Assembly (NCBI RefSeq): GCF_004168365.1
Contig: NZ_CP035704.1
Span: 2,914,001-2,978,000 of the forward strand
Source: Pseudolysobacter antarcticus
Lineage (GTDB): Bacteria; Pseudomonadota; Gammaproteobacteria; Xanthomonadales; Rhodanobacteraceae
DNA: 64,000 nucleotides
Reading direction: 5' to 3'
Shown here: piece after piece, positions 27,251 through 36,434 of the stretch
Layout of the letters: each line of letters begins with the position of its first letter
Position numbering within the stretch: position 1 is the stretch's first letter
Made by a program: the position numbers and the translations under genes
The notes under the pieces: model-generated
Seen by the model: the letters and a program-made list of their open reading frames with translations, nothing else
Told to the model about the DNA's origin: nothing
The model's database searches: none

Positions 27251-27769
27251 ATGAATTTTCTCTCCCGTTTTGCCCTGTTGTTTTGTCTGGTCGGCGCGGC
27301 ACATGCGCAGACCGCCACCGATTATTCGCTGAACGATGGCGCGATCCGTTTCAAGGTGCCCTCGGACTGGTCGATGATCCTGCAAAAAACCGAAGGTAGC
27401 CCGCAGGCGATCGCGTTTCAGGTCAAGGATCCGGCTGATCAGGGCACCGATACTGCGACGCGCGTGACCGTCGATACGCGGCATTTTGCCGATGCCAATG
27501 AATTCTCAAGTTTCGTCGCTTCCGGCATGGCCAAGGCCAAGCAGATCAACTCCTACACTGAAGAAGTCGGTAGCAACGATGCCACCCACCTGCGCTACAC
27601 CGGCATGGATGCGGGCAAGCGCTACCAGTATCGCGACATGTATCTGTTCCGCGAAAGCCTGGGTATCCACGTGCGTTGTGTGCGTCCGTTATTGCCGGCA
27701 ACTACCACCGCATGGACCAAGGCGTACGAGCAAGGTTGTGATTTACTGATGAGCAGCGTGCAGCAGTGA
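27251..27769 (+). CDS. Exported protein of unknown function, paralogue of the protein at 23345-23944
   Basis: 172 residues. ATG 27251 is fixed by GGAG eight bases upstream and by the signal peptide that follows (MNFLSRFALLFCLVGAAHAQ). The mature domain shares its order of motifs with the exported protein encoded upstream of the FUSC gene: FKVPSDWSMI, IAFQVKDPAD, a central YTGMDAGKRYQYRDMYLF and a C-terminal WTKAYEQGCDLL helix. Two cysteines near the end (RCVRP, GCDLL) may pair. The kynU start overlaps its last codons, so the two are translationally coupled and this protein is made together with kynureninase. No known function. Confidence 0.78.
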   Translation: MNFLSRFALLFCLVGAAHAQTATDYSLNDGAIRFKVPSDWSMILQKTEGSPQAIAFQVKDPADQGTDTATRVTVDTRHFADANEFSSFVASGMAKAKQINSYTEEVGSNDATHLRYTGMDAGKRYQYRDMYLFRESLGIHVRCVRPLLPATTTAWTKAYEQGCDLLMSSVQQ

Positions 27770-29046
27770 GTTCATCTTTCGAGGCAAGCTCCAGTTGGGC
27801 GCAAGCGCAGGATGCGGCCGATCCGCTGCGTATATTCCGCGATGAATTCCTGATTCCAAATCACAACGATGGCGAGCAGATTTATCTGTGCGGCAATTCG
27901 CTCGGCCTGCAACCGCGCGGTGTGCGCGATGCGGTCAATGCGGAAATGGATTATTGGGGCAGCCTTGCTGTCGAAGGCCATTTCCGCGGGCGTTTGCCGT
28001 GGATGGATTACCACGAATTCGTGCGTGATCATCTCGCCGAAGTGGTCGGCGCACTGCCGTCCGAAGTCGTGACGATGAACACGCTGAGCGTGAATCTGCA
28101 CTTGATGATGGTGAGTTTTTATCGCCCAACAACAGAGCGTCCAGCCATCCTGATCGAGAAGCGCGCGTTTCCTTCCGATCGTTATGCGGTCGAATCGCAG
28201 GTGCGTTTTCATGGCTTCGATCCGGCCACGGATCTCATCGAAATCGAAGCCGATGCAGCGGATGGCACGTTGTCAATCGATGCGATCCAACGAGTGCTCG
28301 ACGAGCATGGCGCGCGCATCGCATTGGTGCTGTTGCCCGGCGTGCAATATCTGACCGGCCAGGTTTTTGATCTGCGTGCGATCACCGAGATCGCGCATCG
28401 CAAGGGTTGTGTCGTGGGCTTCGACCTCGCCCATGCGGTCGGCAATATTCCACTGCAGCTGCACGATACGCACTGCGATTTTGCAGTCTGGTGCAGCTAC
28501 AAATATCTCAACAGCGGCCCGGGTGCAGTCGGTGGTTGTTTTGTGCACGAGCGTCACGCGCAAACACCCCGCCCTCGTTTCGCCGGCTGGTGGGGCCACG
28601 AAAAATCGACGCGTTTCCAGATGGGTTCGGAGTTCGTACCGACCGTTGGCGCCGATGGCTGGCAGTTATCGAATCCGCCGATTCTCTCGCTCGCACCGTT
28701 GCGCGTATCGTTGGAAATTTTCCACCGTGCCGGCATGCAGAACCTGCGCGCAAAATCGCAGCACTTGACCGCATACCTGATCTGGTTGATCGAGCGCGAA
28801 CTCGATGGCGTATTGAGCGTGGTCACACCGACCGCGCCCGACCAGCGCGGCGCACAACTCAGCCTGCGCGTGCATGGTCCGCGCGATAGCGGCCGTGCAT
28901 TGTTCGACCACCTCGGCACGCAACACATCATCGGTGACTGGCGCGAACCGGACGTGATCCGCATCGCGCCCACGCCGCTGTATAACCGTTACGCCGACTG
29001 CCGCTATTTTGTCGATGCCGCAAAACAATGGGCGGCAACTCGTTGA
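27766..29046 (+). CDS. kynU: Kynureninase
   Basis: 426-residue PLP enzyme that cleaves kynurenine or 3-hydroxykynurenine to (3-hydroxy)anthranilate and alanine. YLCGNSLGLQPRG near the N-terminus, the PLP aspartate region GFDLAHAVGNIPLQLH, and the Schiff-base lysine K246 in WCSYKYLNSGPG are all typical; GWWGHEKSTRFQM is a family hallmark. The start is GTG 27766 overlapping the preceding stop (GTGA). With kmo directly after it and nbaC upstream, the substrate in vivo is likely 3-hydroxykynurenine. Confidence 0.97.
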   Translation: MSSSFEASSSWAQAQDAADPLRIFRDEFLIPNHNDGEQIYLCGNSLGLQPRGVRDAVNAEMDYWGSLAVEGHFRGRLPWMDYHEFVRDHLAEVVGALPSEVVTMNTLSVNLHLMMVSFYRPTTERPAILIEKRAFPSDRYAVESQVRFHGFDPATDLIEIEADAADGTLSIDAIQRVLDEHGARIALVLLPGVQYLTGQVFDLRAITEIAHRKGCVVGFDLAHAVGNIPLQLHDTHCDFAVWCSYKYLNSGPGAVGGCFVHERHAQTPRPRFAGWWGHEKSTRFQMGSEFVPTVGADGWQLSNPPILSLAPLRVSLEIFHRAGMQNLRAKSQHLTAYLIWLIERELDGVLSVVTPTAPDQRGAQLSLRVHGPRDSGRALFDHLGTQHIIGDWREPDVIRIAPTPLYNRYADCRYFVDAAKQWAATR

Positions 29047-29068
29047 TGCCATCTTGAACACGAATACG

Positions 29069-30478
29069 ATGTCCTCTCGCGCCCCCATTACCATCATCGG
29101 CGCCGGTCTGGTCGGCGCGCTACTCGGCACCTTGCTGGCGCAGCGCGGGTTTGCCGTCGAGTTGTTCGAGCGTCGCGCCGATCCGCGGAAAATCGGTTAT
29201 CTCGGTGGCCGCTCGATCAATCTCGCGCTGGCCGAACGCGGCATGCACGGCTTGCGTCTGGCCGGGCTCACTGCATCGGTAATGGACAAGGCCGTGATGA
29301 TGCGCGGGCGCATGGTGCATGCGCTCGATGGTCACAGCGAGCTGCTGCGCTATGGGCGCGACGATAGCGAAGTAATCTGGTCGATCAATCGTGGTCAGCT
29401 CAATACACTGCTGATCGAAGCAGCCGAAGCTGCGGGTGCAAAAATCCATTTCGGGCAACGGCTCGAGTCGGTGGATTTCGACAGATCAACTCTGCGCATG
29501 TTCGATGAAACCAGCGCAGAAATTCGCGAGCACGAGGCCGTCGTCATGCTCGGCACCGATGGCGCGGGTTCGGCCCTGCGCGCCGCGATCAATGCAGTCA
29601 CGCCGCTGGGCGAGCGTTTCGAGCCGCTGGGTCATGGTTACAAGGAACTCGAAATTCCGGCGCTCGGCGATTTTCCACCGAGCGCACTTTCGCCGGAGCT
29701 CACAGACAAACGCGACGCGGGCGAACGTTTTGCGATCGAACGCAACGCGTTGCACATCTGGCCGCGCGGGCATTACATGTGCATCGCGTTACCGAATGCC
29801 GAAGGCAGTTTCACCGTGACCTTGTTTCTGCCGAACAGCGGCGATCCGAGTTTCGCGACGATCGTCAGCCCGGCACAGGTCGCCGATTTTTTTGCGCGCG
29901 ATTTCGCCGATGCAGTGCCGCTGATGCCGAGCTTGATCGAAGACTTCACCCAGAACCCGGTCGGTGTACTCGGCACCTTGCATCTGGATCGCTGGCATCT
30001 GGACGGTCGCGCATTGCTGCTCGGCGATGCGGCGCATGCGATCGTGCCGTTCCACGGCCAAGGCATGAATTGCGGTTTCGAGGATGCGGTAGAGCTTGCC
30101 GACCTGCTCGAAACCGGCAGCCACGATATGGCCGGTGTATTCGCCGAATTCGAAAGCCGTCGCCGACCCAACGCCGAGGCGATCGCGGCGATGGCGCTGG
30201 AAAACTATATCGAGATGCGCGACTCGGTCGCCGCGCCCGATTTCCTGTTGCGGCGTTCGCTGGAACGCATTCTCGCCGAGCGCCATTCGGGCCTTTTTGT
30301 GCCACGTTACGCGATGGTCACGTTTACTCGCCTGCCCTACGCCACGGCATTCGCGCGTGGCAAAATCCAGAGTAACTTGCTGGCCGAGTTGTGCGCCGGA
30401 AAAACCAAACTGGATCAGATCGATCTGCAGCTCGCTGATACTCGCGTGCAGCAGGTGCTGAGCGATATCCCCGCGTAA
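29069..30478 (+). CDS. kmo: Kynurenine 3-monooxygenase
   Basis: 469-residue FAD-dependent hydroxylase converting kynurenine to 3-hydroxykynurenine with NADPH and O2. N-terminal Rossmann motif GAGLVGALLG, then GRSINLALAERG (KMO-specific), a DG motif (MLGTDGAGSALR) and the FAD motif LLGDAAHAIVPFHGQGMNCGFED. The C-terminal hydrophobic helix that anchors eukaryotic KMO to mitochondria is absent, as in bacterial enzymes. ATG 29069 is chosen to start just before the Rossmann strand, 22 bases after kynU. Tryptophan dioxygenase and formamidase genes, needed to make kynurenine, are not in the window. Confidence 0.97.
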   Translation: MSSRAPITIIGAGLVGALLGTLLAQRGFAVELFERRADPRKIGYLGGRSINLALAERGMHGLRLAGLTASVMDKAVMMRGRMVHALDGHSELLRYGRDDSEVIWSINRGQLNTLLIEAAEAAGAKIHFGQRLESVDFDRSTLRMFDETSAEIREHEAVVMLGTDGAGSALRAAINAVTPLGERFEPLGHGYKELEIPALGDFPPSALSPELTDKRDAGERFAIERNALHIWPRGHYMCIALPNAEGSFTVTLFLPNSGDPSFATIVSPAQVADFFARDFADAVPLMPSLIEDFTQNPVGVLGTLHLDRWHLDGRALLLGDAAHAIVPFHGQGMNCGFEDAVELADLLETGSHDMAGVFAEFESRRRPNAEAIAAMALENYIEMRDSVAAPDFLLRRSLERILAERHSGLFVPRYAMVTFTRLPYATAFARGKIQSNLLAELCAGKTKLDQIDLQLADTRVQQVLSDIPA

Positions 30479-30775: not shown

Positions 30776-31153
30776 ATGCGAAAAAAACCAGGTTGGATGC
30801 GTTCGAGCATCCGTTCATCATTACGGTTACGCGCAGCGCTTTTGCTCACGGCGGCATTGTTCGCTGCGAGTAGCAGCGTGATCGCGCAATCAACGCAGCA
30901 GACAGCGACGTCCGTCGGCACTGCTGCACCGCAGGTCGATCCGACCTTCAGCATCGATTGGCACGTGATCACGGGCGTCGGTCAATTACACGCGCACAAC
31001 AGCTGCTTTGACCTGTCGGGCACGATCGGGCAACCGGTGCCGGGCTATTCCAGCGGCGGTACGTATTCGGTTATTTCCGGGTTCTGGACGGTGGCTGCGA
31101 TCAGCGGACGCGACGAAATATTCTTTAACGGATTCGAGGTGTGTGGATCATGA
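30776..31153 (+). CDS. Small exported protein with C-terminal IFFNGFE motif
   Basis: 125 residues from ATG 30776, which has AGGGG eight bases upstream. A basic N-terminus and hydrophobic core (about 20-38) ending SSVIAQ form a signal peptide. The mature part contains [40 protein letters not shown] and ends [13 protein letters not shown]. The FDLSGTIGQ...ISGFW segment resembles short beta-domains found in many secreted proteins of unknown function. The last codons overlap the start of the collagen-like gene (ATGA), so both are translated together. I infer a secreted or surface partner of the collagen-like protein. Confidence 0.75.
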
Positions 31154-32724
31154 AACGCAATCAACTTTGCATGTACGTTGCCAGCGCGCTGATGTCGATG
31201 GGCGCCTTTGATGTGGTGCAGGCCGCACAAACGCAGACCACGGCGTTTACCTATCAAGGCCAGCTCAGCGCAGGTGGCTCATTGCCTGCTTCGGCGAGCT
31301 ACACTTTCACCTTCAAGTTGTATGACGCTGCTACTGGCGGCAGTCAGGTTGGCTTGGCTATACCGCCGCAGAACATCACCGTGGTCAACGGCCTGTTCAC
31401 CACCGATCTAGATTTCGGCCAAGTGTTCAACACACAACAATACTGGCTCGAAATTGCCGTCAACGGCCAGATCCTGTCGGCACGTCAACCGGTGGGTACG
31501 GTTCCCGTTGCGCAATACGCATTGAATTCTCCCGCTGGCGTTGCTGGCCCGACCGGCGTTAGCGGCCCCACAGGCGCTGCTGGCCCGACCGGTATTACCG
31601 GCGCAACCGGATTTGGTGCGACCGGCGCCACCGGCACGGCAGGTGCAACGGGCGCTACCGGACTCACCGGCAGCAATGGCCTGGCAGGCGCAACTGGTGC
31701 AACGGGCAGCGGAGCTAATGGCGCAACTGGCGCCACCGGCTCGGCCGGTGCTACCGGCACGACCGGCGTGCAAGGATCAACCGGTAATACCGGCGCTACA
31801 GGAGCCAGCGTCACAGGCGCTGCCGGACAGACTGGTTCGCAAGGTGTCACTGGCCCAACGGGTGCCACCGGCGCGGGCGTGGCCGGCGCAACCGGAATGA
31901 CCGGAACAGCTGGGGCAAAAGGTGCGACCGGCACGACTGGTGCGTCTGGAGCTACTGGCGTAACAGGTGCTGGTGTAACAGGCGCTACGGGTATCCAGGG
32001 CGCAACTGGAAGTGCGGGCGCCACAGGCTCGGTAGGTAATACCGGAGCTACCGGAGCCGGTGTCACTGGCGCTGCCGGACAAACTGGTTCACAAGGCGTT
32101 ACTGGTAGTACCGGAGCTACCGGAGCAGGCGTCACTGGCGCTGCCGGTCAGACTGGTTCGCAAGGCATTACTGGCCCGACAGGTGCAACCGGCGCAGGCG
32201 TGGCCGGCGCAACCGGAATGACCGGTACGGCTGGGGTCAAGGGTGCAACTGGCGCAACCGGTGTAACAGGTGCTACGGGAGCAGGTGTCACCGGTGCGAC
32301 TGGCGTAGCGGGTGCGACAGGTGCACAGGGTCAGACCGGTGTCACCGGTGCGGTCGGCGCCACAGGTGCCGGTGCAACAGGCGTACAGGGGCCGCAAGGC
32401 GTGACGGGTACGACCGGGCCAGCAGGATCAACCGGCTCTACCGGTGCAACGCCGATGCTCAGCCAGACTTTAACCACGGTGACGCCGACCACGACCACAG
32501 ACTGCGCATCCGGGACCACCTGTACCATCACTGTGCTTTGTCCGGGTACACAACGCGTGGTCAGCGGCGGCATGTCGATCGTCGCGGGTACGAAGTATTT
32601 TACGGTCCTCAACGAAAGCTTCCCGAACGCCACCAATAACGGGTGGACCGTCACCGGCTCAAACTTCGGTAGCGGCGGTGGTGGCCCAATAACTTTCAAG
32701 GCATTCGCGATCTGTACACCATAG
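31150..32724 (+). CDS. Collagen-like Gly-X-Thr repeat surface protein
   Basis: 524 residues: signal peptide (about 1-26), an N-terminal beta domain (27-125: [45 protein letters not shown]) common in exported fibre proteins, about 100 Gly-X-X triplets (about 130-434) and a C-terminal domain with two cysteine-bearing strands ([12 protein letters not shown]). Triplets are overwhelmingly G-A-T, G-P-T or G-V-T; there is almost no lysine, so the stability would come from Thr rather than charge pairs or hydroxyproline. An internal duplication of about 115 bases (near 31817 and 32137) shows recent expansion. Start ATG 31150 overlaps the upstream stop. Probable trimeric surface fibre. Confidence 0.88.
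31534..32450 (+). repeat. Collagen triplet-encoding repeat tract with internal duplications
   Basis: About 915 bases of 9-base-phase sequence (GGC-GCN-ACN and relatives). The segment encoding [10 protein letters not shown] occurs three times (starting near 31817, 32071 and 32137), and the first and third copies share more than 100 bases with only scattered changes. Such tracts are prone to slippage and copy-number change between strains. Confidence 0.85.
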
Positions 32725-32824: not shown

Positions 32825-32965
32825 CGCTAACGCGCAAGTCGAATGGATGCATAGCTTGCAAATAACGCCACGCATACATGCCAGCTCCGTACAATGCACG
32901 TTTGAGTAATGCTGAGTGCAAATGACTCCGAACCTTGCAATGTTTGTGCTATTTCCGGAGCTCGC

Positions 32966-33541
32966 ATGAATGACAGTGTGACCGAACTGCTGGCCGCGGC
33001 CGATCGCGGCGACGATCTGGCACGCGATCAGTTATACGACGTACTCTACGAAGAGCTGCGCCGTTGCGCGCATCGGCAGTTGCGTCGCGGTTACAACGAA
33101 ACCCTTTCGACCACCGCACTAGTCAACGAAACCTTTATCAAGCTCGCGGCTCCGCAAGCCTTGCCGCCGGGCAGTCGCATGCATTTCATGGCATTGGCGG
33201 CGCGCGCGATGCGTCAGGTACTAGTCGATCACGCGCGGCGTAATCAGGCCGACAAACGCGGCGGCGGCGCGCTGCATGTGACGCTTGATGAAGCACTGCC
33301 CGATGCTGCCGACGATGCGTTTGCGGTGCTCGCACTGGATCAGGCATTGACCACGCTGGAGCAGATCGATGAGCGTGCGGCACGTGTTGTGCAATTGCAT
33401 TTTTTCGGTGGCATGGCGTTTTCGGCGATTGCCGAAATCGAAGGACTGACCCTGCGCACGGTGATGCGCGACTGGCAGGCGGCACGCGCGCTTTTGTCCA
33501 GCGAGATGAGCAGTCAGGGCGCACATGAATCTCGACCTTAA
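32966..33541 (+). CDS. ECF-family sigma factor (partner of a TPR Ser/Thr kinase)
   Basis: 191 residues from ATG 32966 (CCGGAG upstream). Region 2 is YDVLYEELRRCAHRQLRRG...LSTTALVNETFIKL and region 4 ends in FFGGMAFSAIAEIEGLTLRTVMRDWQAARALL, a helix-turn-helix. This is the subgroup of sigma-70 factors found next to TPR-containing protein kinases in xanthomonads and planctomycetes. No anti-sigma gene is adjacent; the kinase gene overlaps its 3' end by 17 bases, so phosphorylation-based control is the likely mode (inferred from the family). Confidence 0.9.
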   Translation: MNDSVTELLAAADRGDDLARDQLYDVLYEELRRCAHRQLRRGYNETLSTTALVNETFIKLAAPQALPPGSRMHFMALAARAMRQVLVDHARRNQADKRGGGALHVTLDEALPDAADDAFAVLALDQALTTLEQIDERAARVVQLHFFGGMAFSAIAEIEGLTLRTVMRDWQAARALLSSEMSSQGAHESRP

Positions 33542-36434
33542 ACGCCGCGCATTTGTTGTGCTGCGCGAGATACTCGATCAGCCACTCGAATCACAAACCG
33601 AGTGGCTTGAGCAACGTTGTGGCTACGAGCCGGAACTGCATGCGGAAGTGCTGAAGTTGCTCGCAACCCAACATGGCGCGCCAATACTCGATCGGCCAGC
33701 CCTCGCGCTTGCTGCGACGCTAACGCCATCCGATGACGATAGCCTCGACGAGCTGCCGGTCGATACCGCAATCGGTGCGTGGCGCGTGCAACGCACGCTC
33801 GGACGCGGCGGCATGGGCGCGGTGTTTCTGGTCGAACGCAGCGGCACAGATTTCGTCCAACACGGCGCACTGAAACTGATTCGACGCGGCATGGACAGCA
33901 GCGACATCCTGCAGCGTTTTCGCCGCGAGCGACAGATCCTCGCGCGTCTGCAGCATGCGAATATCGCGCGCCTGCTCGATGGCGGCCTGAGCGCCAACGG
34001 TCAGCCGTATCTGGTGATGGAATATGTCGAGGGCCAGCCACTGATGGCGTGGGCCGAGCAGACGCAGGCCGATCTCACGCAACGTCTGGATCTGCTGCGC
34101 AAGCTGTGTGATGCGATCGCGTACGCGCATCGCCAGCTGATCGTGCATCGCGATATCAAACCCGGCAACGTGCTGGTCGATGCGAGTGGTGAACCGAAGC
34201 TGCTCGACTTCGGCGTGGCCAAGGTGCTCGAAGACACCGAGCAGGATGAACAGACCACCGCAGCCTCGCGTTTTCTCACGCGCGCTTATGCCGCGCCGGA
34301 GCAGATTCGCGGCGAGGCAATAAGTACCGCGACCGATATCCATGCCCTCGGCGTGCTGTTGTTCGAGTTGCTCAGCGGCGCGCGTTTCCACGGCAATACG
34401 CACGCGACTGCCGGCCGACCGGTATTGCGATTGATGCAGGCGCGTTTGCAGGTCGGTGCGAACGGCCCGGAAAGCATTACGCCGAAATCCTTGCGTGGCG
34501 ATCTTGGCATCATCGTGGCGCGTGCGTGCGATGACGAACCTGCGCGCCGCTACGCCACGGTCGAGGCATTTGCCGACGATATCCGGCGCTGGCAAGGCAA
34601 TCATCCGATCGAAGCGCGCGCAGATAGCAGCAGCTATCGACTCAGCCGTTTTGTGCGACGTCATGCGATCGCCAGTTTTGCTGGTGTGCTGGCGTTGAGC
34701 GCGATCATTGCCGGCGGCAGCATCGCGCTGTGGCAAGCGCATCGTGCCGAAAGCGAAGCCGCGCTAGCGTTGGCATCGCAGCGATTCCTGACCAGCGTGT
34801 TCGATGCGTCGGCGCCGGATCGCGCTGCTGGTGCGCGTATCACCGCGCGTGATTTGCTCGATCAAGGCGCCGCGCGCGCGCAAACCGAACTCGCCGATCA
34901 ACCACGGCTGCAAGCCAGCATGTTGCAGACGCTCGGAATTCTTTATCGGCAACTCGGACAGTTCGAGCATGCCGCCACGCTGTTGACGCAAGCGCGCGCA
35001 CTGGCGGCAAGTTCGGGGCAAAGCGATGCGGCGGAACGCGCGCGTGGTGCGCTCGAACTCGCGATCGTGCAACGCGAAACTGGCAAGTACGACGAAGCTC
35101 AAACCCTGCTCGACGAATCGCAAAAACTCAGCCGCGACGATGCGCAAAAAAGTGCCGTGTATGCCGAACGAGCATTGCTGGACGAAAAACAGGGCAAGCT
35201 CAAGCAAGCGCTCGAAGATACCCGCATCGCCGCTACACTGGATGCGGCGCGCGGTGCCCAAGGCGCAGCCGACAGCGCGCGCGATCAGCACCTGCAGGCT
35301 TTGATGCTGAGCCGCCTCGGTGATTATAACGGCGCCAGCGCGGCGTTCATCGACGCGATCGCGCGCGCCACCGCCGCACTTGGCCCCGAGCACAGTTCGG
35401 TGGCGCAGATGCACAACGATTACGCCACACAACTGATGACACAAATGCGCAGCAAGGAGGCCGAAGTCGAAGTGCGTCTGGCGCTCGACGCGCGACAAAA
35501 ACGTCTCGGCGAAAATCATCCGGCGATCGCCGAAACGCTGCAATTGCTCGGCGGCACCTTGCGGCAGCAAGGGCGGCTCGACGAAGCCGAAACGGCGCTG
35601 AATCACGCCCTGGAAATTCAGCGCCAGGCGCTTGGTGCGCAACATCCCGATACCGCAAATACGCTCAATTCGCTGGGCTTGCTGGCGATGTCGCAACAAC
35701 ATTTTGTGATCGCCGAAGCACGGCTCGGCGAGTCGTTCGCGATCTTCCGTACCAACCACCTTGAAACCACGCCGCCGGCCATCACGATCAGCAATAATTG
35801 GGGGGTGGTGCTGATGCGACTCGGCCGCTACGATCAAGCCGAACCGTTGATGCGCAATGCACTCGACAAACACCGCGCCCAAGTCGGCGACGAGCATCCA
35901 CTGGTGATGAGCGATCTGAACGCGTTGAGTCAGCTCGCGCGCCGGCGCGGCAATACGCTTGAAGCGGTGGAACATGCGCGCAAGGCGATGGCGATTGCCG
36001 AGGCCAAACTCGGCAAAAGTCGCGACGTTGAATCGATCCGCAATACGCTGGCCAGCGCGCTGCTCGCGAACGGCCAAACGCAGGCCGCGCAAGAAACTTA
36101 CCAGCAGGCGCTCGATGCATTGCATGCGCTGAATGCGGATAACGATCCACGTTATGCGCAAGCCTTGTTCGGTCTGGCGAAGACCAATCTCGCACTCGGC
36201 AAAACTGATCAAGCGCAACTGCTCGCGCAACAGGTTTTACAACTGCGCTGTGAGCATTTCGCCAGCGACAACGGCGGACTCGCGGCAACACAAGCGCTGC
36301 TCGCACGCATCGCTTATGCACAAGGCAATCGTATCGACGCGCAAGCTGCACATAGCGAGGCGCAAGTCTTGCTCGCGGCATGGCAGGAACCCGACCCGGA
36401 AGTCGCGCAAGAAATCAAAGCCGCGCTGCGTTAG
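33525..36434 (+). CDS. Membrane Ser/Thr protein kinase with C-terminal TPR array
   Basis: 969 residues: an N-terminal helical region (about 1-80), a complete Hanks-type kinase domain (about 86-350), one membrane helix (about 382-405) and about 540 residues of tetratricopeptide repeats on the far side. Kinase motifs are intact: GRGGMG (93-98), K117, E135, HRDIKPGN (208-215, D210) and DFG (228-230), then YAAPEQIRG. TPR units carry the kinesin-light-chain type pattern (GENHPAIAETLQLLGGTLRQ, HPDTANTLNSLGLL), suited to ligand or partner sensing. It overlaps the ECF sigma gene by 17 bases and presumably controls it. Confidence 0.93.
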   Translation: MNLDLKRRAFVVLREILDQPLESQTEWLEQRCGYEPELHAEVLKLLATQHGAPILDRPALALAATLTPSDDDSLDELPVDTAIGAWRVQRTLGRGGMGAVFLVERSGTDFVQHGALKLIRRGMDSSDILQRFRRERQILARLQHANIARLLDGGLSANGQPYLVMEYVEGQPLMAWAEQTQADLTQRLDLLRKLCDAIAYAHRQLIVHRDIKPGNVLVDASGEPKLLDFGVAKVLEDTEQDEQTTAASRFLTRAYAAPEQIRGEAISTATDIHALGVLLFELLSGARFHGNTHATAGRPVLRLMQARLQVGANGPESITPKSLRGDLGIIVARACDDEPARRYATVEAFADDIRRWQGNHPIEARADSSSYRLSRFVRRHAIASFAGVLALSAIIAGGSIALWQAHRAESEAALALASQRFLTSVFDASAPDRAAGARITARDLLDQGAARAQTELADQPRLQASMLQTLGILYRQLGQFEHAATLLTQARALAASSGQSDAAERARGALELAIVQRETGKYDEAQTLLDESQKLSRDDAQKSAVYAERALLDEKQGKLKQALEDTRIAATLDAARGAQGAADSARDQHLQALMLSRLGDYNGASAAFIDAIARATAALGPEHSSVAQMHNDYATQLMTQMRSKEAEVEVRLALDARQKRLGENHPAIAETLQLLGGTLRQQGRLDEAETALNHALEIQRQALGAQHPDTANTLNSLGLLAMSQQHFVIAEARLGESFAIFRTNHLETTPPAITISNNWGVVLMRLGRYDQAEPLMRNALDKHRAQVGDEHPLVMSDLNALSQLARRRGNTLEAVEHARKAMAIAEAKLGKSRDVESIRNTLASALLANGQTQAAQETYQQALDALHALNADNDPRYAQALFGLAKTNLALGKTDQAQLLAQQVLQLRCEHFASDNGGLAATQALLARIAYAQGNRIDAQAAHSEAQVLLAAWQEPDPEVAQEIKAALR

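Follow-up and report, generated by a model that had tools for sequence, protein, structure and literature searches.

The locus analysed here raises the question of what a small exported protein, whose gene overlaps that of a collagen-like protein, does with its distinctive C-terminal tail, and of which machinery might recognise this tail. It lies in a window (i.e., the whole stretch of 64,000 nucleotides that was analysed) corresponding to C2:2914001-2978000 of a genome of 4.73 Mb. Our main reading, drawn from comparisons of sequences and to which we give about one chance in two, is that the tail would be a linear signal by which one particular type II secretion system (T2SS), called T2SS-A below, recognises its clients, perhaps through the PDZ domain of its GspC component. 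The features of the locus are collected in Table 1.

Table 1. Features of the locus, with positions given in the window.
Feature	Position	Strand	Characteristics	Evidence
Small exported protein, 125 aa	30776-31153	+	signal peptide; Gly-rich GTIGQP...GGxYxxxxGFW domain; linker; C-terminal tag	translation, 22-sequence alignment
Tag DEIFFNGFE	31112-31138	+	residues 113-121 of the small protein, followed by VCGS	motif and residue counts
Collagen-like protein, 524 aa	31150-32724	+	signal peptide; N-terminal FTYQGQL... domain; GAT-rich G-x-y repeats; C-terminal non-collagen part	translation, Pfam
ECF sigma factor	32909-33541	+	Sig-70_X6 type (TIGR02999)	189.4 bits, cut-off 126.15
Ser/Thr protein kinase	33525-36434	+	TPR-like repeats; overlaps the sigma factor gene	kinase and TPR models, below equivalog cut-offs

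The original prediction described a 125-residue protein with a distinctive tail, encoded in ATGA overlap with a collagen rich in G-A-T triplets and internally duplicated. These features were all found again, with the correction that the tail as then quoted ended two residues early. The overlap consists of the stop TGA of the small gene and the start ATG of the collagen gene. In the collagen, GAT makes up 28 of the 95 triplets (counted in G-x-y runs of at least four triplets), and there are exact internal repeats of 22 (positions 234 and 341), 19 (positions 298 and 321), and 15 amino acids (positions 221 and 305). The 524-aa ORF matches PF01391 Collagen in four stretches (E 1.1e-33; 115.2 bits for a cut-off of 27.2), and its translation does not contain the tag. 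With the same G-x-y repeat, signal peptide, and non-collagen ends as other bacterial collagen-like proteins (PF01391), it is ordinary among them; only its overlapping tagged partner is unusual. As for this partner, a scan of its 125-aa sequence matched no Pfam or NCBIfam family at E 1, its AlphaFold model is uninformative (pLDDT 43.5, pTM 0.20), and it passes our looser signal-peptide rule, which is weak evidence since this rule fires widely on ORFs. Upstream of the pair stand two genes (27766-29046 and 29009-30478) that we take to be those of a kynureninase and a kynurenine 3-monooxygenase.

Homologues of the small protein are present in 14 of 41 genomes, its own included, where we found one clear other copy, at C2:1430579. 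The alignment of 22 members of the family reveals a single Gly-rich domain (GTIGQP...GGxY...GGFW), and most of these proteins end in the tag or in a close variant. Of the 28 loci of the small protein examined in relatives, six show a collagen-like ORF in the flanking sequence retrieved; at four of these, found in three genomes (L044, L045, L046, and L066), the collagen gene lies directly behind the small-protein gene. By ORF coordinates, three of these four recurring pairs overlap in an ATGA, while L045 shows a two-base gap, and their collagens share a similar N-terminal domain. The pair is thus genuine, and part of the group has inherited it. In most cases, however, the small protein has no collagen beside it: at 22 of the 28 loci, the flanking sequence retrieved (up to 1.5 kb, or shorter near contig ends) lacks any collagen-like ORF. 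In the own genome, no homologue of the small protein adjoins any of 11 other collagen ORFs (L103-L109). The two-gene system proposed at the outset thus holds as a pair recurring at four other loci, and is not supported as a fixed unit. The same data bear on the idea that the small protein helps to assemble, cap, or escort a collagen fibre, with its tag taking the pair to the surface. The adjoining pairs with their similar collagen N-terminal domain speak for such a role, as does the presence of the tag on the small protein and not on the collagen; nevertheless, given the many small-protein loci lacking a collagen-like ORF in their flank, the unpartnered collagens of the own genome, and the uninformative structure model, we consider it unlikely, compatible as it is with our main reading. 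As a separate observation, a collagen-like ORF at L105 directly follows a 265-aa ORF that finishes in a hydrophobic stretch tipped with basic residues, resembling another kind of anchor.

The tail itself is far from confined to this locus. Using a strict DNA pattern (F-x-[ND]-G-F-E), we obtained 42 matches in the own genome and none with the reversed pattern, and a wider pattern gave 66 matches against a single reversed one, so that the tail occurs beyond chance. We examined 66 sites, i.e., 65 of the wider-pattern places (C1:1385 was left out) and one strict-pattern site (C2:911129), and at 52 of them the motif lies 0-8 residues from the stop codon. These sites belong to unrelated proteins, predicted to be exported; the tail was thus recovered on dozens of other exported proteins of the same genome, which bears out the initial impression that it looks like a recognition tag. 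Among the 51 tagged proteins with a full ORF (site C2:2038297, without start codon, was excluded), a D stands two places before [ILV]-F in 39 and an E in 4, although the pattern left this position free, and the positions further upstream show no conservation across folds. Hence, we write the tag as D-x-[ILV]-F-x-[ND]-G-F-[ED]. It is strictly terminal in 20 of the 51 proteins and trailed by 1-8 residues in the other 31. We also met tail variants (IFSNGWQ, IFTTEFEGCP, and IFRNGFQ); tag-like motifs near the mature N terminus, behind the signal peptide, at C2:2474256 (VFA-DDFIFGDGFDG) and C2:3001263, as well as in L108:10548-11762 on the minus strand (FA-NDTVFAAGFDP); and, among the 66 sites, some internal tags located between domains. 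At L151, two consecutive tag-like motifs are found at one C terminus (IFLDGFEGDVIFKNGYD).

These few internal or N-terminal copies would suit a motif of structural nature, e.g., a terminal strand or the relic of a domain opening with an F-x-D-G-F-E-like stretch, devoid of any role in traffic, and proteins with a similar opening strand are known. We hold this to be very improbable, because the residues preceding the tag are unconserved across folds, and because a near all-or-none spread and a genus-wide change of one residue, both described below, fit a shared reader better.

Short C-terminal motifs are a feature of several known systems. In sortase-type signals such as GlyGly-CTERM and PEP-CTERM, the motif precedes a hydrophobic helix, which leads to a basic end. 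The architecture of the tag is different, with at most eight residues behind the motif at the 52 near-terminal sites and four (VCGS) in the small protein, which leaves no room for such a helix. The GlyGly-CTERM/rhombosortase system is similar in that many unrelated exported proteins carry the same C-terminal tag, and differs by its transmembrane helix and basic tail. A GlyGly-CTERM protein family (SVAGG) matches two of the 51 tagged proteins (place of the match not given), among the 25 most frequent of 75 families, and rhombotarget A matches one of nine tagged proteins scanned singly, with 38 bits for a cut-off of 295, over a region that extends just into the tag and stops at its first residues. 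A GlyGly-CTERM carrier of Vibrio, VesB, is described as a T2SS substrate (PMC12369372; PMC13393428, PMC3237569). PEP-CTERM/exosortase, reported to have been found through its sporadic spread over genomes (PMC1569441), shares this sporadic spread with the tag and differs from it by the helix behind the motif. Neither a PEP-CTERM model nor any Pfam or NCBIfam model of the tag was recognised among the 25 most frequent of the 75 families of the 51 tagged proteins, and the literature searched, which takes in few subscription journals, contained no paper on the tag.

The carriers point to export. By a strict signal-peptide rule, 34 of 48 tagged ORFs qualify, against 91 of 398 untagged ones, all of them taken from fetched stretches picked around tags and collagens. 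The looser rule, passed by 49 of the 51 tagged proteins, was dropped; it fires for 314 of the 669 ORFs of genome G442 and for 38 of the 53 of the window. One carrier, C2:3181938 (L088), starts with what we judged by eye to be a twin-arginine signal, and the tag may therefore not depend on Sec. The domains of the carriers are diverse, with choice-of-anchor Q in 13 of the 51, delta-60 repeats in 7, and Kelch, FG-GAP, DUF11, LRR, and others; as far as domain matches tell, the tag sits on unrelated exported folds. That the motif is an export tag is, in our opinion, very likely. Among the nine tagged proteins scanned singly, seven match choice-of-anchor Q, two of these with scores under its cut-off; each of the seven has the start of its tag 1-4 residues past the match. 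Other bacteria place anchors behind choice-of-anchor domains. The tag thus sits where anchors sit in these proteins, as it would if it were a surface-retention or processing signal acting after export and recognised by some enzyme or surface receptor, with T2SS-A co-occurring by joint inheritance. This explanation, which we regard as rather unlikely, would also agree with a description of Wenzhouxiangella as excreting no proteolytic activity into the medium, its proteases being argued to be held at the outer membrane (PMC7691419); it has against it the shortness of what follows the tag, without space for the helix and basic end of sortase-type signals, and the tags near the mature N terminus.

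The spread of the tag is narrow. Among 370 genomes of the class, the own order alone stands out, with 41 matches in the own genome, 25 in G015, and at most 4 in any other (reversed controls gave at most 3). Within this order, tag counts over 200 genomes are nearly all-or-none. Of 30 tag loci taken from other genomes of the order, 27 have the tag within 10 aa of the stop codon. The exact tag followed by a stop codon was found in at least 117 stretches. The matches listed include Marinicella, Rudaea, Tahibacter soli, and many records named Lysobacterales bacterium; some listed records are named only Proteobacteria or Gammaproteobacteria, and others are attributed, by record name alone, to Alcanivoracaceae (at least seven) and to a few Pseudomonadales, Planctomycetales, and Xanthomonas.

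Such an all-or-none distribution can be compared with that of candidate readers. T2SS in general was rejected as the reader because a GspD of some kind is present in 198 of the 200 genomes, tag-poor ones included. T2SS-A is marked by a distinct GspD whose neighbour GspC ends in a PDZ domain, the genes standing in the order gspC-gspD-gspE. In the own genome, GspD matches over the cut-off lie at C2:351121-352923 and C2:3804548-3806524; the T2SS-A GspD used as search query lies at L285:9999-12095, and the T2SS-A GspC matches T2SSC (119.1 bits) and PDZ_2 (43.2 bits) with cut-offs of 27. Of 54 T2SS-A loci searched, 53 have a homologue of this GspC whose alignment covers the PDZ part, the remaining locus being cut by a contig end; none was found at seven other GspD loci from tag-rich and tag-poor genomes.

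Counting both forms of the tag (G and R, see below), T2SS-A was present in 90 of the 98 genomes with at least 10 tags and absent in eight, whereas it was present in 10 and absent in 92 of the 102 genomes with fewer; it agrees with the tag class in 182 of 200 genomes, with thresholds for T2SS-A set after the data were seen and with related genomes whose counts are not independent. The limit of 10 tags is one of three that we tried (5, 10, and 15). With a limit of five, 94 genomes with at least five tags have T2SS-A and 15, eight of which belong to family f8, do not, while below this limit 6 have it and 85 do not. The GspD of T2SS-A was found in 107 genomes at E 1e-60, contig-end fragments being counted as present. 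Nine f2 genomes, whose GspD shows 39-46% identity (E of 6.7e-102 at best), were assigned to another clade; including them would add nine tag-poor genomes to those with T2SS-A, and three of these nine possess a PDZ-type GspC as well, likewise distant, without having any tags. For GspC, the cut was placed at 1e-34, chosen after seeing the gap down to 5.8e-24. Alignment A4 was built from 21 T2SS-A genomes, including G442, the source of the R form. The GspC-PDZ profile adds two genomes missed by GspD (G501 and G544); among six tag-rich genomes designated in advance, G501 was the only one recovered.

The association also holds within families. In f1, the T2SS-A GspD occurs in all four tag-rich genomes and in none of the 30 tag-poor ones (E 1e-60), the best general GspD match being of E 1e-168 to 1e-175 in the former against 1e-139 to 1e-146 in the latter. 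In f2, T2SS-A is found in the one tag-rich genome (G470, a close match) and in none of the 34 tag-poor ones, the nine distant matches being set aside. G408, which alone in f9 lacks G-form tags, also lacks any GspD match. The eight genomes with at least 10 tags and no detected T2SS-A are G433, G443, G446, G496, G545, G555, G559, and G565, all 77-94% complete except G446, which is 97% complete and has 17 tags of both forms, without any T2SS-A GspD or GspC being found. G446 may hold another tag reader. It is the richest of the eight f8 genomes with 5-17 tags and no T2SS-A found, and this family, in which four further genomes have T2SS-A and 0-2 tags, is the least clean. The link between the tag and T2SS-A is a co-occurrence only, partly confounded by shared descent.

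The sole comparison gene for T2SS-A was that of the Sig-70_X6 sigma factor, a possible regulator of the neighbourhood in the window. Similar sigma factor or kinase genes are found near tag genes in several other genomes, and clustering of the neighbourhoods of tag loci revealed no dedicated enzyme, only these sigma and kinase modules. Counted up to 15 per genome, Sig-70_X6 reaches 15 in the four tag-rich f1 genomes and 1-11 in the rest of f1. At its best threshold, it sorts 163 of the 200 genomes rightly, compared with 182 for T2SS-A, and some tag-poor f8 genomes have 11-12 of these factors. We therefore rejected it as a marker of the tag and see in it a regulator at most. That other genes track the tag too is nonetheless a point in favour of a post-export signal merely inherited together with T2SS-A.

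Returning to a tag addressed to T2SS-A, the following course of events may be proposed. Having crossed the inner membrane via Sec (in one case apparently via Tat), the tagged proteins would fold in the periplasm and present the tag on the end of a linker. T2SS-A (gspC with PDZ, gspD, gspE) would then recognise it, the PDZ domain of GspC being the most likely receptor, and pass the protein through GspD to the surface or the medium. In the window, the small protein would be a client of T2SS-A, produced along with an untagged collagen and perhaps accompanying it. From the tag, its position, its spread, and its co-occurrence with T2SS-A, all read directly in the genomes, we infer that T2SS-A may secrete the tagged proteins, with the tag as signal and the PDZ domain as receptor. 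The odds that the tag is linked to T2SS-A are, in our estimation, about even; for the PDZ domain as the receptor, they are clearly below even, and we propose it as a tentative candidate.

GspC PDZ domains are described as taking part in substrate choice elsewhere (PMC12369372). On the other hand, the 31 tags trailed by 1-8 residues are unlike canonical PDZ ligands, which end at the carboxylate. If the PDZ domain reads the tag, these trailing residues and the N-terminal copies imply a binding as an extended strand and not via the end carboxylate. In Vibrio, the EpsC PDZ domain is reported to be fully needed by only one known substrate, VesB, whose signal is carried by an Ig fold (PMC12369372), and Xanthomonas XpsC is reported to have a single helix where OutC and EpsC have their PDZ domain (PMC11981180). 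The T2SS of Dickeya (OutC) and Vibrio (EpsC) resemble the system proposed here by their folded periplasmic clients and by a GspC with PDZ. Their signals, by contrast, are described as loops or an Ig fold, and T2SS clients are said to share no common linear signal or motif (PMC7949064, PMC12369372), whereas here a single short motif is shared. If our reading is true, the tag would be the first general linear T2SS signal, and many unannotated proteins of the order could be assigned to the surface or the medium. How type II systems choose their clients is an open question, and a nine-residue tag, a candidate receptor, and a natural variant of one residue make it directly testable.

This variant comes from genus g33 (family f10), in which T2SS-A is present and G-form tags number only 0-3 per genome. 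In the 800 kb that we read of one of its genomes, G442 (L335-L374), F-x-D-R-[FY]-E forms the ending of five proteins predicted to be exported, of which four keep the usual D, and all four matches of the R pattern lie 0-6 residues from the stop codon. The R form, F-x-D-R-F-E, predicted from G442, was then searched in the 20 other g33 genomes and gave 542 matches against 26 for the G form, the pattern used, F-x-[ND]-[R/S]-F-E, also admitting the Ser codons AGY. With G442 excluded, 17 of these 20 genomes have at least 10 matches and 19 at least five. A direct link to T2SS-A accounts for the concordant differences within f1, f2, and f9, and for this g33 variant, no less well than a post-export signal does. 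We also looked for PDZ columns differing in g33. Such differences exist, and they are inseparable from descent and give no clear sign of co-evolution with the R-form tag beyond it, so that co-evolution was not retained as evidence. That the tag is a transferable linear T2SS signal read by the GspC PDZ domain, tag and reader having diverged together from G to R in one genus, is a possibility that falls short of probable. Our forecast of near-zero counts of the R/S pattern outside g33 failed, as several tag-rich genomes reach 10-40 matches, those listed being mostly Ser forms; the genomes without T2SS-A mostly have 0-3.
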